A model generated the notes under the pieces. It ran no database searches. It was not told the origin of the DNA and was given only the letters and a program-made list of their open reading frames with translations. From contig PATH01000011.1 in assembly GCA_002712325.1 (NCBI GenBank), forward strand, positions 2,094 through 40,968: DNA of 38,875 bases. The letters are read 5' to 3'. This DNA comes from Acidimicrobiaceae bacterium. Lineage in GTDB: Bacteria > Actinomycetota > Acidimicrobiia > Acidimicrobiales > UBA8592. Positions 18,175 to 36,718 of the stretch are shown here, in pieces. Numbering within the stretch: the first letter of the stretch is position 1; each line of letters starts with the position of its first letter. The translations under genes and the position numbers were made by a program.

Positions 18175-21100
18175 TCAGCCGTGATTCCAATAGGAAAGCA
18201 GATCCTCTATGGGAGCAATTAGCAAGTCAACTACAGGAATAGCTGAGAGAGTATCTGCTCTAAATGTCGGTTCAGTCTCTGTGATATAATCTGAGATCGC
18301 TGTATACCTGTCCTTGTATCCTTCTAGGACATGTCTCGCAGCCTGTTCAGTTAAATAGGTTTCAAGTTCAACATGCAGAAGAGTTAAACCTACAGTCTCC
18401 TTATCTTTTATCTCGGGGACTAGGATAATGATCCGCTGATCATGCCTACCTCTCGTGATAGTTACCTCTTGTTGTAAAGCCACGAGATGTTTGCTTCCTT
18501 TTAATTTGGGGTCCCTCTCCGTTCTTGACATAAGATCATGAGCTATTCCACCCTTATCAACGACGTGTACTTGAGCAGTGCTTGATCGAACATCTCCATC
18601 AATCGCATACCTAATGAATCCTGAAATTGATTTAACAGCTGGGTCTATGGCTGCTAGATAACGAAGATTTTTGTACGAAATACGATCACGTGGTGTACCA
18701 GCTTCGAGCATCTTAGTCACAAGATTTAACTGAATAAGTTCTTCGTCAGATCTAGAAATACCCACAGTAACTGTTTTTGCTTGATGCTTTATTGCGTCAA
18801 TCGGTCTAGTAAGTTCCTCAATTCCTATTGTTAGCGCTGCATTAAGATCTTCCAATAAAGTTGCAGGCGTCCCTACTTTTCCAGTGTCTATTTGATACGA
18901 GTCAAGAGGTATTGTTCCTAGTGCATATCTATAAAGTGTCGAGATACGAGTCGCCGTGCTCGCCTCCAGGCTTCCGTTATATAAGCCCGAACGCAACCCA
19001 TCAAAGAACGTATTAGTTATTGACTGTAAGGGTTCATAAATAGACTCCATGAGTTCTTGCGCGCTTATAGATGGGTTTTCTGACAAAGTTTTCTCAATTG
19101 CTGATCTAGTCTGCCTAAAAGGTAGAGCTAAAGCATCTATCGACAAAGCAGCCTCATAGCCGAATAAATGGCCAACCATTGTTGCCAGGATAAATGATAG
19201 CTTTGGGTTTGTTTTCGGGACCACTATGACTCTATGAGCATCTGGGTATGCATTTCCATTGTCAGTGATCACGATAGGTGCCGCTTTGTGAGCCTTATAA
19301 ATTGCAACTTCTTTTGCTACGTCGGATTGCATTGAGTCATTAAGTCCGGTGGCGCAAATGAGGACTAGTGGTTCAGCAGAGAGATCGATATGTTTTTTAT
19401 CTTCCGTGAAATCCGCAGCTATCGATTTATAACAAAGCTCTGAGAGCTTTATTCGTATTTCTCTTGCAGCTACGATATTCAAGCCATTGCCGACAAGAGC
19501 CCAGTAGCGTCTTGAAGGTGCTAGTTCAAAAGCGACATCGCGTATCTGGTTTTGTTGTTTGAAGACATCCAACATTTTCTTTGGGAGTTCATTCAGTTCT
19601 TGTAAGAGAGTTTGACGACTCTCCAGCTTTTCAGAATTGATAGGTTCGTTCTTAATTTGATCCCGTATTGAGACCCCCAATAGGAAGCTTGCTGCGATTT
19701 GTGAGTAAAATGCTTTGGTCGAAGCGACACTCATTTCAATATCTCGGCCATCAGATGTATAAATAATTCCATCTGCCTTTTGGGAAAGGTCTGAGTTTCT
19801 TCTGTTCACGATAGCAATTACTGAAGCACCCCTACCCCTGACTAAATCTACTGTTCGGTTTGTGTCCGTAGTTGTCCCTGATTGGCTGATAGCAATAACG
19901 AGTGTATTCGACATGTCAGTTGAAAGCCTGAAACCTGAAAGTTCAGTTGAAGGGATTGACTCAACATCGACCTCTGTTTCCTCGCTTAGGTACTGACCTA
20001 ATGCTTGTCCCGCAACAGCGGCTGTTCCTTGACCTATAATGTAGATCTTATCTATAGAGCGATCTTCCAATTTTTTTCTTATGAATTTGGGAAATTCAAC
20101 ATCGGAGTGGGCGACTCTAAATATGCCATTGTCGTTCAACAAGTTACCTCTGAGAGTCTTTTCGAAAGATTCAGGAGATTCAGATATTTCTTTCAAAAGA
20201 AAATGTGGAAAATTCCTTCGGTCAATATCACGCGTTGTAATTTCAGCTTGTGTTAATTCATCAGCTTTGATCGGTAAAGGCGTCCCATCATAGGCGATAC
20301 GATCTAGTGACTCTAATGCGACACGTTCCTTCAGTGAAATAGAGACGATCTCTCCAGGTCCGGAAACACCGTCATTTCGGTTTGGGAGGATTTCTCCGTT
20401 CAATCGCAAATAGCTTTCTGTAGTTTCAACTAGACCATACGGTTCGCTTGCCACTACGTAGGCTTCATCTGAAAGTCCGATATACAGTCCTTGTCCGCTT
20501 CCTCGCAAAGCCATGAAAAGTTTGTTGGGTTCTAAATCGGCATTTGCAATGACGGCGATAGAGCCATCTAGAGATTGTACTGTCTGCCTGAAGGCCTCAT
20601 CAAGATTACGAACAGGCCCGTCTTGATTAGAAAGTTCATTGGAGATTATTGCCGGAATAACTTTTGAGTCTGAGGTGATGAGTTTGGGAATTTGCAAGTC
20701 TCGGATTCTTTTAAGGTCAGCGAAGTTATCGACATCTCCGTTAGCTGCGACTACTACAAACGGGCTTTCTTCACTTTCAAGTAATTCTGAGTTCATAGGG
20801 TGAGCATTCGGTTCCGAGATGATACCTACGCTCGCCCATCGTGAATGACCTATCGCTACTGCAGTTACATCCTCATTCTCAAGCGCTCTGTAAAGTAGGT
20901 CATCAGCTAGGATTAATTTACGGAGCTCTCGAGTATTATCTCCGAGTTCACCTATTTCCGAAGCTACTTTATAAACGATGCTTAACGCATTATCAAGGAT
21001 TCGTACGGATCCAGACTTGTAATTGAGATCTTTAGTTCTCTCCTCAATTTCGTGTATCACTCCAGGGTTTTCAAGATCTAATCCGTGATTTTGTATCATG

Positions 21101-21609
21101 AGATGAATTCCAGCTGAATCTCTGCCACGTACTTCAAGCCTGTCTAGCCCTGCAAGAACTTGTTGAACCGTGAGTAAAACTTCAATGAACCTATCTCCTT
21201 TTCTTCCTCCTAAAAGCTCTTCTACTAAATGTGAAACTATTACTCGGTCATTTTCAATGTGCCAGAGAAGGTCTTTCAGTTTGATTAGGTCACTATTTAT
21301 CTTTTCTAATATTTGACTATCCATTCCAGTTTGCACAAGGTCTGATTCAAAATTATCTAAATCTTCTGTGAGGATTGTACAAATCCCCTGCAATTGGACG
21401 CGAAATTGAGGGTTGTTTATCAGGCTGTTAATTCCTGCGGATCCAGAAATGAGTTCTTTAACTCTCCGTAATATTTTGATAGATCTCAGAATATCTTCAT
21501 GCCCTTGAATTCTTCCTATATTCCTTAGGTCAGCTATCTGTGTTACCTGTTCAGCTGAAAGGGGAATCCGTGATGATTTCTGTCTAGCGATGGCAATAAT
21601 CCCGCACAT
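18175..21609 (-). CDS. enlarged GlmS-like glutamine amidotransferase / SIS-domain protein (~1144 aa)
   Basis: MCGIIAI N-terminal nucleophile Cys, RLEVRGRDSAGI, GHSRWASVG...NAHP, SIS motif VIAISQSGTTTDT, SVASTKAFYSQI; next to glmM. The second of two Mets is taken as start so that Cys is residue 2. Confidence 0.8.
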   Translation of the reverse strand: MCGIIAIARQKSSRIPLSAEQVTQIADLRNIGRIQGHEDILRSIKILRRVKELISGSAGINSLINNPQFRVQLQGICTILTEDLDNFESDLVQTGMDSQILEKINSDLIKLKDLLWHIENDRVIVSHLVEELLGGRKGDRFIEVLLTVQQVLAGLDRLEVRGRDSAGIHLMIQNHGLDLENPGVIHEIEERTKDLNYKSGSVRILDNALSIVYKVASEIGELGDNTRELRKLILADDLLYRALENEDVTAVAIGHSRWASVGIISEPNAHPMNSELLESEESPFVVVAANGDVDNFADLKRIRDLQIPKLITSDSKVIPAIISNELSNQDGPVRNLDEAFRQTVQSLDGSIAVIANADLEPNKLFMALRGSGQGLYIGLSDEAYVVASEPYGLVETTESYLRLNGEILPNRNDGVSGPGEIVSISLKERVALESLDRIAYDGTPLPIKADELTQAEITTRDIDRRNFPHFLLKEISESPESFEKTLRGNLLNDNGIFRVAHSDVEFPKFIRKKLEDRSIDKIYIIGQGTAAVAGQALGQYLSEETEVDVESIPSTELSGFRLSTDMSNTLVIAISQSGTTTDTNRTVDLVRGRGASVIAIVNRRNSDLSQKADGIIYTSDGRDIEMSVASTKAFYSQIAASFLLGVSIRDQIKNEPINSEKLESRQTLLQELNELPKKMLDVFKQQNQIRDVAFELAPSRRYWALVGNGLNIVAAREIRIKLSELCYKSIAADFTEDKKHIDLSAEPLVLICATGLNDSMQSDVAKEVAIYKAHKAAPIVITDNGNAYPDAHRVIVVPKTNPKLSFILATMVGHLFGYEAALSIDALALPFRQTRSAIEKTLSENPSISAQELMESIYEPLQSITNTFFDGLRSGLYNGSLEASTATRISTLYRYALGTIPLDSYQIDTGKVGTPATLLEDLNAALTIGIEELTRPIDAIKHQAKTVTVGISRSDEELIQLNLVTKMLEAGTPRDRISYKNLRYLAAIDPAVKSISGFIRYAIDGDVRSSTAQVHVVDKGGIAHDLMSRTERDPKLKGSKHLVALQQEVTITRGRHDQRIIILVPEIKDKETVGLTLLHVELETYLTEQAARHVLEGYKDRYTAISDYITETEPTFRADTLSAIPVVDLLIAPIEDLLSYWNHG

Positions 21610-21672
21610 CATTCCATTGTAGGGATTTAAATAGCTCTTATCACGGCAGGCCTATTATCTATGGCTTGGTAA

Positions 21673-27718: not shown

Positions 27719-27943
27719 CTATTTATACCTGTAGGTGATGCGACCACGTTCTAGGTCGTATGGCGTAAGCTCAACTTGCACTTTATCCCCAGGAAGTATG
27801 CGTATGTAATGCATTCTCATTTTGCCAGAAATATGAGCTAAGACTTTATGTCCGTTTTCTAGCTCCACTCTAAACATTGCGTTAGGGAGAGGTTCAACTA
27901 CAGTTCCCTCCATTACAATTGCATCTTCTTTTGATTTAGCCAG
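27719..27943 (-). CDS. infA: translation initiation factor IF-1, apparent CTG start
   Basis: ORF track begins at internal ATG (27913), but the conserved N-terminus continues upstream as (L/M)[23 protein letters not shown] from CTG at 27943, with AAGGAG 7 nt upstream and an in-frame TAG at 27947-27949. Confidence 0.9.
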
Positions 27944-27957
27944 TGTCTATCTCCTTA

Positions 27958-28020
27958 CTAATTATTTGGTTTGGCACAGGTATTTCTGCGCGCAAAGCCA
28001 AATGAAAATCCTACCGGCAT
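27958..28020 (-). CDS. candidate 20-codon leader peptide (uORF) upstream of infA: MPVGFSFGFARRNTCAKPNN
   Basis: ATG at 28018-28020 preceded by GGGGAG with 8-nt spacing; ends TAG followed directly by TAA, overlapping the infA SD. Could be coincidental. Confidence 0.35.
   Translation of the reverse strand: MPVGFSFGFARRNTCAKPNN
27964..28003 (-). promoter_or_regulatory. bulged hairpin in the infA 5' leader
   Basis: Minus-strand RNA: AUUUGG-c-UUUG-c-GCGCAG [AAAUAC] CUGUGC-CAAA-CCAAAU; 16 bp including one G-U, two single-C bulges, 6-nt loop; ends 7 nt before AAGGAG; no U-tract on either strand. Confidence 0.65.
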
Positions 28021-28073
28021 TACTGTCACTCCCCAACCCAAAGGGAATTTGATTCTGGTTATCTTTTGAGTCA

Positions 28074-28631
28074 TTAAATATTTCTCTCTATTTCTTCTAT
28101 TACTCTCGTATGTACTTCAGTTTCAGTACCCAGACCGTCAATCACACATAAAATATTTTCACTCTCAAACCACTTAATTAAAGGAGCTGTCTCAGCTTCA
28201 TATAATTCAAGTCTTCTTGCAATGGCCTCTGGTGTATCATCTTCGCGACCTCGACTCATCATTCGCTGAGTTACTTCTTCAATTGAAACGTCTAAATTTA
28301 TTGCAAGTTTGAGACTTTCTCCAACTAGTTTTTTAAGCTCTGTAGCCTGACCGACAGTTCGCGGATAACCATCGAGGAGGAATCCCGAGTTCTGCACATC
28401 GTCTTTCGCTAGTCTCTCTGCGACTATTCCGTTAACCACCTCATCTGTTACAAGCCCGCCTGCGTCCATAATTGATTTTGCTTTGAGTCCAAGCTCTGTT
28501 CCCTCCTGCACTGCAGACCGCAGCATATCTCCAGTTGAAATATGAACGATTTGAAATCGTTCTGTGATACGGACTGCTTGTGTTCCTTTACCAGAACCTT
28601 GTCGTCCCAAAATGACCATACCTAGTGTCAT
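28074..28631 (-). CDS. adk: adenylate kinase
   Basis: MVILGRQGSGKGTQAVRI, VHISTGDMLR, GFLLDGYPRTVGQA. Confidence 0.95.
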   Translation of the reverse strand: MTLGMVILGRQGSGKGTQAVRITERFQIVHISTGDMLRSAVQEGTELGLKAKSIMDAGGLVTDEVVNGIVAERLAKDDVQNSGFLLDGYPRTVGQATELKKLVGESLKLAINLDVSIEEVTQRMMSRGREDDTPEAIARRLELYEAETAPLIKWFESENILCVIDGLGTETEVHTRVIEEIERNI

Positions 28632-34549: not shown

Positions 34550-34965
34550 TAGAATCCTTCCTTTCTGCTAACAAACTTTGCTTTTATTGGAAGTTTCTGT
34601 ATTGCGCGATTTATTGCTTGCCTTGCGATCTCTTCGTCGGGATAGGACAATTCAAACAAGACTCGTCCTGGGCGGACTACAGCAACCCAGCGTTCTACGT
34701 TTCCTTTTCCTGAACCCATTCGTGTTTCAGCAGGCTTTTCTGTAACTGGTTTGTCTGGAAAGATATTTATCCAAACCTTACCGCCACGCTTAATATGTCT
34801 AGTCATAGCAATACGAGCAGCTTCAATTTGCCTTGCGGTGATCCACCCAGGCTCTAAAGCTTGTATGCCGAAGTCGCCAAAGGAAACTTCGTTTCCTCCT
34901 TTAGCATTACCTTTCATACGCCCACGATGGTGTTTTCTGTGCGCTACTTTTCTTGGCATTAACAT
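34549..34965 (-). CDS. rplP: 50S ribosomal protein L16
   Basis: [51 protein letters not shown]. Confidence 0.97.
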
Positions 34966-35867
34966 CAGTCGGCTTCTCCTGGTCTAAAGATTGGTGTTTG
35001 GTTTTTGGAGTTAGTCAACTTTGCTATTTGTTCTTCTTCATCTAGAAGTTTTTCGAATTCAGGGTCAGCTTCCTGAACTAGTGGAGTGAGCTCTTCAACT
35101 TCAGATTCTTCTTTGTCATTAGAAGCCTTATTTCGAGCTGCAGATGATGAAACTACTTGTTTTCCTTGACTTGGGCCAGAAGTTTCTCCCGCTGCCATTG
35201 CTGCTTCGCGATCAATTTTATCTTCTGCTTGAACTTTGTAAGGAAGAATATCTCCACGGTAGATCCAAACTTTGACGCCTATTCGTCCGTATGTTGTATG
35301 GGCTTCTCTGAACCCATAATCAATATCAGCTCGAAGCGTATGCAGTGGCACACGACCTTCGCGATACCATTCAGATCTTGACATTTCTGCGCCGCCGAGT
35401 CTTCCGGAACATTGCACTCGTATCCCTAGAGCTCCGGCCTTTTGTGCGTTCTGCACTGCGCGTTTCATGGCTCTTCTAAACGCTACTCGACCTGCAAGTT
35501 GATCTGCCACACCTTGAGCGATAAGTGCTGCATCAAGTTCTGGTTGTTTGATCTCTTGAATATTTAATTGAACTTTCTGGTTCCCGGTTATTTCTGTTAG
35601 TCCAGCTCGCAGTCGATCGGCTTCAGCTCCTTTACGACCGATAACAATTCCGGGCCGAGCCGTATGGACGTCAATTCGTAGTCGGTCTCGAGTCCGCTCA
35701 ACCTCTACTCGGGAGATTGCAGCGTGGGGTAATTCGGTCATAATAAAATTGCGGACTTCCCAATCCTCAATGACGAAGTCAGCATATTCCCTGTCGGCGA
35801 ACCATCTTGACTTCCAGTCGGTAGTAACACCTAAGCGAAATCCGTATGGATTAACTTTCTGACCCAT
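34965..35867 (-). CDS. rpsC: 30S ribosomal protein S3 with acidic C-terminal extension
   Basis: [32 protein letters not shown]...[31 protein letters not shown]; ~80-aa low-complexity tail. Confidence 0.96.
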
Positions 35868-36718
35868 TATTCGTTCTCCCCATCATTATCATCTTGGTTC
35901 TCTTCCGTTTCATCGTTATCTTTTTGCATGCTGTTTGGAAGTCTAAACCCTGCAGCTTCTGCAGTTTCAGCGTTGGTAAACCACACATCAGCTTTTGTTC
36001 TTCCGAAGAAAGACGATTCTTCAGGGTGATAGATCTTTGTTGAGACTTTCGCCTTTATGGTGAAATCTGAACTTGGTGCTGACCCATCTTCAAGAGCAAA
36101 GGTTGAACCTTCTCCGTATGGGGTATCTTCAGATTCTGTGTCTGATTTTTCTGCAATCTCTTCTTGTTCAGAAGGAGTTTCCTCAACTTCGTCAACTATT
36201 GCTTCTGGGTCTTCATCAGACTGAACTTCTTCTGGCTGGCTTTCAAGTTCAGATTCCTTTGATTTAGCGACTCTTCTCTTTCTTGATTCTGCAGCGCTTT
36301 GTTGAGTTTGGTTTCCTTTAAGTTCTGCTCGTTCTCTTTGTTCGGTCAGTTCTTCTGAAGAATACCTTCCAAGAATTAACGTAATATGGCATGTCCTTTT
36401 CCTTATTCGGGTAGCTCGTCCACGAGCTCGAGGGCGCCATCTTTTCAAGGTTGGACCTTCATCTGCGTAACATGCTGAAACAAATAGCTCCTCTACAGGG
36501 ATATCATCATTATTTTCTGCATTGGCAGCAGCTGAATTAAGGCATTTGAGGACGGTGTCACTTATTCGGCGTTCAGAGAAGGTGAGAATGTTTGTAGCTT
36601 CAAAAAAAGATTTACCTCTAATAAGATTTAATACCTCTCTGACCTTGTAGGCAGATGAGCGAACATACTTAAGTTGTGCTCGAGTGCCGGGCCTTTCATT
36701 AGTTTTAGTTGCCGTCAT
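35867..36718 (-). CDS. rplV: 50S ribosomal protein L22 with long acidic and sunset-like C-terminal extension
   Basis: L22 core [24 protein letters not shown]...[29 protein letters not shown]; tail [43 protein letters not shown]. Confidence 0.93.

Follow-up and report, generated by a model that had tools for sequence, protein, structure and literature searches.

CUG start codon of infA and a hairpin at the predicted 5' end of its mRNA across an order of Acidimicrobiales-type Actinomycetota

Comparison of loci across an order of Actinomycetota (Acidimicrobiales-type) shows that infA, the gene for initiation factor IF1, has CUG as its predicted start codon in nearly all members. In the window, i.e. 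the whole 38,875-nt stretch of DNA analysed here, this codon follows a dedicated promoter and a hairpin close to the predicted 5' end of the RNA, and we consider this anatomy (promoter, 5'-proximal hairpin and CUG start) very probably correct. Taken together, a promoter, a hairpin at the RNA 5' end and a weak start codon subject to feedback through IF1 and IF3 would be the best explanation of the locus as a whole, one that we favour with some reserve.

Locus and annotated features

The end of adk (28074) is followed on the minus strand by infA-rpmJ-rpsM-rpsK-rpsD-rpoA-rplQ-truA; features of the infA leader are collected in Table 1. The source assembly of the window is fragmentary (1.27 Mb, 78% complete). 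As adk lies directly upstream of infA, map (methionine aminopeptidase) seems to have been lost from this operon, and in several high-GC relatives of the order the gene before infA carries a map-like 3' end.

Table 1. Features of the infA leader and coding sequence (positions in the window)
Feature	Position	Strand	Remarks
infA (IF1) CDS	27719..27943	-	74 codons + stop; start CTG 27943-27941; TIGR00008 equivalog match
infA Shine-Dalgarno (SD) AAGGAG	27951..27956	-	read in the sequence; SD core in 126/130 order loci
-35 box TTGGGG, predicted infA promoter	28031..28036	-	order-wide profile, unseeded; conserved in genus
-10 box TAGGAT, conserved CGG before it	28008..28013	-	TAnnnT in 107/115 upstream regions
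YYGGCYY element (TTGGCTT) at predicted transcription start	27995..28001	-	order-wide profile
Predicted 5'-terminal hairpin	27964..28003	-	folding; 16 bp, two single-base bulges, loop AAAUAC 27985-27980
uORF of the original prediction	27958..28020	-	judged not a gene; start, length and stop all unconserved

Translation start of IF1

The infA gene of the window has no ATG, GTG or TTG start; its CTG at 27943 stands 7 nt after AAGGAG, and an in-frame TAG (27949-27947) lies two codons upstream. Among 130 order loci with a scored start codon, CTG was found in 118, TTG in six, ATC in five and ATA in one, while ATG and GTG never occurred, which makes the start non-canonical (CTG, ATC or ATA) in 124 of 130; the TTG starts belong to one family and one other genus. 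Three order loci that could not be scored by rule have CTG (with an extension) or ATC, and eleven further loci, mostly lower-scoring infA copies, have CTG (9), GTG (1) or TTG (1). The rpmJ and rpsM genes of the same loci start with ATG 95 times, GTG eight times and TTG once (n=104), and outside the order nearly all actinobacteria examined start infA with ATG, GTG or TTG. The CTG can be read as a start rather than an ordinary leucine codon because CTC, CTT, CTA and TTA are absent from this position, whereas CTC is the commonest codon at a Leu/Met position ten codons downstream (CTC 48, CTG 30, CTT 7, TTG 5, TTA 1); the codons between the two vary synonymously. An ATG two codons before the CTG, in frame or nearby (at -13), occurs in nine loci of the genus and is absent from the window and most of the order. 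The internal ATG at 27913 was rejected as a start, since ten conserved residues would be lost and the relatives mostly encode leucine at this codon. Beyond the order, there may be other rare infA starts, with candidates for GTA in one genome of the same class and for ATA or ATT in one of the same phylum.

CUG accounts for 0.024% of bacterial start codons and reaches 0.86% of AUG efficiency in Escherichia coli (PMC11497404). Here, a universal and essential gene has this start almost without exception in some 40 families of a single order, and near-fixation of an otherwise so rare start points to selection. No report of infA with a CUG start was found in literature that included subscription papers in part. 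Annotation restricted to ATG, GTG and TTG starts would truncate or miss IF1 in these genomes.

A proposed control loop

In six relatives the initiator tRNA is normal in both anticodon (CAU) and GGG/CCC stem, which would make CUG as poor a start here as elsewhere; an altered initiator tRNA that relaxes start-codon discrimination was rejected on the same grounds. The initiator tRNA gene was not found in the window's own assembly, which is 78% complete. In E. coli, infC (encoding IF3) controls its own expression through its AUU start codon, and mutation of AUU to AUG reportedly abolishes this control. Two properties of that system recur in the order, as infA encodes a start-codon proofreading factor and has a conserved non-canonical start. 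In both cases, the gene of an initiation-fidelity factor combines a conserved, poorly used start codon with a good SD; there, the codon is AUU, the factor IF3 and the control established, whereas here the codon is CUG, the factor IF1 and the control putative.

IF1 acts together with IF3 in initiation fidelity, and both antagonise the locking of start complexes on non-canonical codons (PMC4611024). Hence a mechanism can be proposed in which CUG would keep IF1 synthesis low and subject to proofreading of initiation codons by IF1 and IF3: low IF1 would relax proofreading and allow more initiation at CUG, strong proofreading would lead to less IF1, and the result would be negative feedback. The IF3-sensitive triplets listed in the same review are AUU, AUC and AUA, with CUG not among them (PMC4611024), and direct discrimination of IF1 against CUG was not found in the literature examined. 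We put the case for such start-codon feedback on IF1 at close to evenly balanced.

The second fidelity factor shows a similar pattern, in that all 31 genomes examined, the window's own included, start infC with ATA or ATC and none with ATT or ATG. A 6-codon open frame that starts with TTG and is preceded by AAGGAG overlaps the infC start in the genome of the window. Both factors, IF1 (CUG) and IF3 (AUA/AUC), might then be made from codons that they themselves reject and be joined in one feedback loop, a suggestion we make tentatively and hold a shade less likely than not to be right. If true, it would be a second instance of autocontrol by an initiation factor and the first for IF1. No report of IF1 autocontrol was found in the literature, within incomplete coverage, and it is testable by a one-codon change.

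Counting against feedback are the six order loci with TTG and the two diverged copies with GTG or TTG, all of them canonical starts that the feedback model disfavours. In a simpler reading, CUG would only hold IF1 at a constant low level compared with the ribosomal proteins of the operon: a weak codon is an easy route to low output of a single operon gene, and where TTG has replaced CUG the start is still weakish but no longer non-canonical. However, GTG or TTG would also give low output, and still CUG (with ATC and ATA) recurs, while the other fidelity factor, IF3, likewise uses ATA or ATC only. We therefore regard a fixed low level without feedback as a real possibility, though one with the odds against it.

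Weak starts for infA have precedent in chloroplasts, where UUG is reported as the infA start codon in Chlorella and tobacco (cited in PMC9845219). There too, infA is translated from a weak non-AUG start and its expression is strongly limited; UUG, however, is a canonical bacterial alternative, whereas the codon found here is CUG, fixed in a bacterial order.

Transcription start and leader

The upstream regions of the 130 infA loci with a scored start codon were reduced to 115 by removal of near-duplicates and searched by expectation maximization (EM) seeded on enriched words. The motif TAnnnT-N6-YYGGCYY was found in 107 of these 115 regions with a log-likelihood of 595 vs 47-52 in shuffled sets, a result that is partly circular as the -10 and YYGGCYY seeds were drawn from the same data. 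TTGG at a spacing of 17 nt from the -10 box emerged unseeded (T 79%, T 66%, G 75%, G 56%), and YYGGCYY begins seven nt after the -10 box, at the expected +1. The strict pattern TTGG-N19-TAnnnT-N6-YYGGCYY has one match in the window's genome (27995-28036, minus strand) and 14 in 59 order genomes vs nine in a backward control; 11 of the 14 precede infA (8), rpmJ, rplM or rplS. This comparison shows that the adk-infA gap holds a predicted dedicated promoter of sigma-70/sigma-A type for infA-rpmJ-rpsM-rpsK-rpsD-rpoA-rplQ, and its spacing predicts transcription to start at about 28001 (+/-2). YYGGCYY as an element specific to infA was rejected, since relatives also have it in front of rpmJ, rplM and rplS.

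With a start near 28001, the RNA would begin with the hairpin, followed by a short unpaired A-rich stretch, AAGGAG and the CUG start codon. The 16-bp bulged stem described in the original prediction is both the minimum free energy and the centroid fold of a 66-nt stretch, with -19.3 kcal/mol and a z of -2.86, matched by 2 of 200 shuffles, whereas a 181-nt fold with flanks is unremarkable (z -0.62). The absence of a U-tract was also seen correctly: the stem is followed by AAUAAUUAG and does not qualify as an intrinsic terminator or attenuator. Across 107 promoter-anchored leaders, 40-nt folds have a mean z of -1.2 at the predicted +1, vs -0.4 and -0.1 at ten nt upstream and downstream, respectively, and +0.3 to -0.3 elsewhere, and only at this offset does folding exceed dinucleotide-preserving shuffles; 40-nt stretches near the start codon fold more weakly than their own shuffles. 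Folds of 50 nt gave a mean z of -0.99 vs -0.17 for the upstream control (p 1e-7). The hairpin of the window ranks sixth of the 107 by z and starts at the predicted +1, a position inferred from spacing, where the order-wide dip in folding energy also lies. Moreover, when 5' arms were matched with downstream sequences, pairing was better within the same leader than between species (p 2e-4 and 2e-3), without signal for arms from +16 on or for upstream controls; the effect is moderate, the anchor contains GGC, and relatedness among leaders was reduced, not removed.

The exact stem of the window fares differently: among the six closest sequences, pairing holds in 84% of cells, several pairs of the 3' arm are broken, and the covariation by which the stem was to be checked amounts to zero compensatory changes, because the 5' arm barely changes. 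An Rfam search of the window gave no match above the gathering score, and a permissive search gave chance-level matches only; no conserved RNA family or internal motif was found in the leader. The comparison across leaders shows that a predicted hairpin is conserved across the order in its position and not in its sequence. A processing or stabilising structure, the fallback reading of the original prediction, was supported for the placement of a hairpin at the predicted RNA 5' end throughout the order and not for the particular stem.

The same layout appears in front of rplM. Among the upstream regions of rplM in the order (n=10), seven scored above 8 bits for the infA promoter motif, six of them above 9.2 bits (95th percentile of a shuffled null), while medians were 0.9 upstream of rpsM and -4.2 upstream of rpoA. 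The seven motif-bearing rplM leaders have a mean folding z of -1.4. In the window itself, rplM (GTG 23922) is preceded by TTGTTT-17-TATCGT, six nt, TTG and TCCTAA-ctgat-TTAGGA (24003-23949, minus strand), which places a 6-bp hairpin a few nt after the predicted start; its folding (z -0.36) is not above shuffles. We take the putative promoter and 5'-hairpin layout as a promoter/leader class of some ribosomal protein operons, and its occurrence at both infA and rplM would offer a handle on the control of such operons in a little-studied group.

Because it is the place of the hairpin that is kept and not its sequence, and because the SD stays free, we infer that the hairpin marks or protects the 5' end; it would shield or define the end of the mRNA, in an arrangement common to the rplM leaders. 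Stem-loops of the E. coli ompA type stabilise an mRNA from a position at or within a few nt of its 5' end, with the SD free. The infA leader would likewise have its predicted hairpin at or near the RNA 5' end, with the SD free; here, however, the sequence is unconserved, the hairpin occurs on infA and rplM leaders, and a stabilising role is putative.

Alternatively, YYGGCYY may act as DNA, in start-site choice, in a response to ppGpp or the initiating nucleotide, or as a factor site, with the hairpin a by-product of a GC-rich initial sequence. The fixed distance of the element from the -10 box and its recurrence at the rplM, rplS and rpmJ promoters would agree with this, but the better pairing of downstream sequence with its own 5' arm and the above-shuffle folding at the +1 offset only count against it, and we consider this reading unlikely. 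Even less probable is repression of the operon by a ribosomal protein such as S4 or S13 bound to the leader hairpin. The infA leader does head a ribosomal protein operon, as do the autogenous leaders in Rfam (Alpha_RBS, L20, S15 and others), and hairpins occur on rplM leaders too; yet it has no family match and no conserved internal motif, sequence or shape beyond the hairpin, its SD is not sequestered, and rplM leaders share the layout though their product differs.

The reading frame ahead of infA

The original prediction was built on an upstream open reading frame (uORF), and its letters are exactly as described: on the minus strand, GGGGAG and 8 nt precede ATG (28020), followed by MPVGFSFGFARRNTCAKPNN, TAG (27960-27958), TAA (27957-27955) and AAGGAG (27956-27951). 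Its conservation at codon level was checked in an alignment of 15 genus members and one further sequence of the same family. GGTTGG and CGGTAGGAT are conserved there at fixed spacing and the ATG between them is not: three of the 15 have TTG at this position, six have ACG, and ATG is confined to six, the window and five near relatives. Owing to indels, the frame has variable end points or reads through past the infA start, and the tandem TAG-TAA is found in the window only. The six ATG-bearing sequences differ in the part they share, before the variable part, by two substitutions only, each of them non-synonymous. GGGGAG and the ATG sit within and between the -35 (TTGGGG) and -10 (TAGGAT) boxes, which puts the ATG ahead of the predicted +1. 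Further upstream, the frame stays open as far as a second ATG at 28074, which overlaps with the stop codon of adk and would give 38 codons. No family match was found for the uORF, and with conservation lacking as well it was rejected as a small gene, the 38-codon form included.

Translation of the uORF that melts the hairpin and delivers ribosomes to the infA SD is hardly credible, for although an SD-like GGGGAG and an ATG at proper spacing occur in the window and five near relatives, the ATG is unconserved in the genus, the stops shift, the changes are non-synonymous only and the ATG precedes the predicted +1 between the promoter boxes. Attenuation or re-initiation by this route was accordingly abandoned. 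The associated idea of feedback dependent on initiation factors survives as plausible in another place, at the CUG start codon of infA and not at the uORF.

Further observations

Three other proteins encoded on the minus strand of the window were noticed. A GlmS-like protein (18175-21612) has 1145 aa, far more than the roughly 600 aa usual for GlmS; besides its glutamine amidotransferase and SIS domains, much of its sequence is unassigned. Long acidic C-terminal extensions past the Pfam domains are present in the ribosomal proteins L22 (283 aa, 35867-36718) and S3 (300 aa, 34965-35867).
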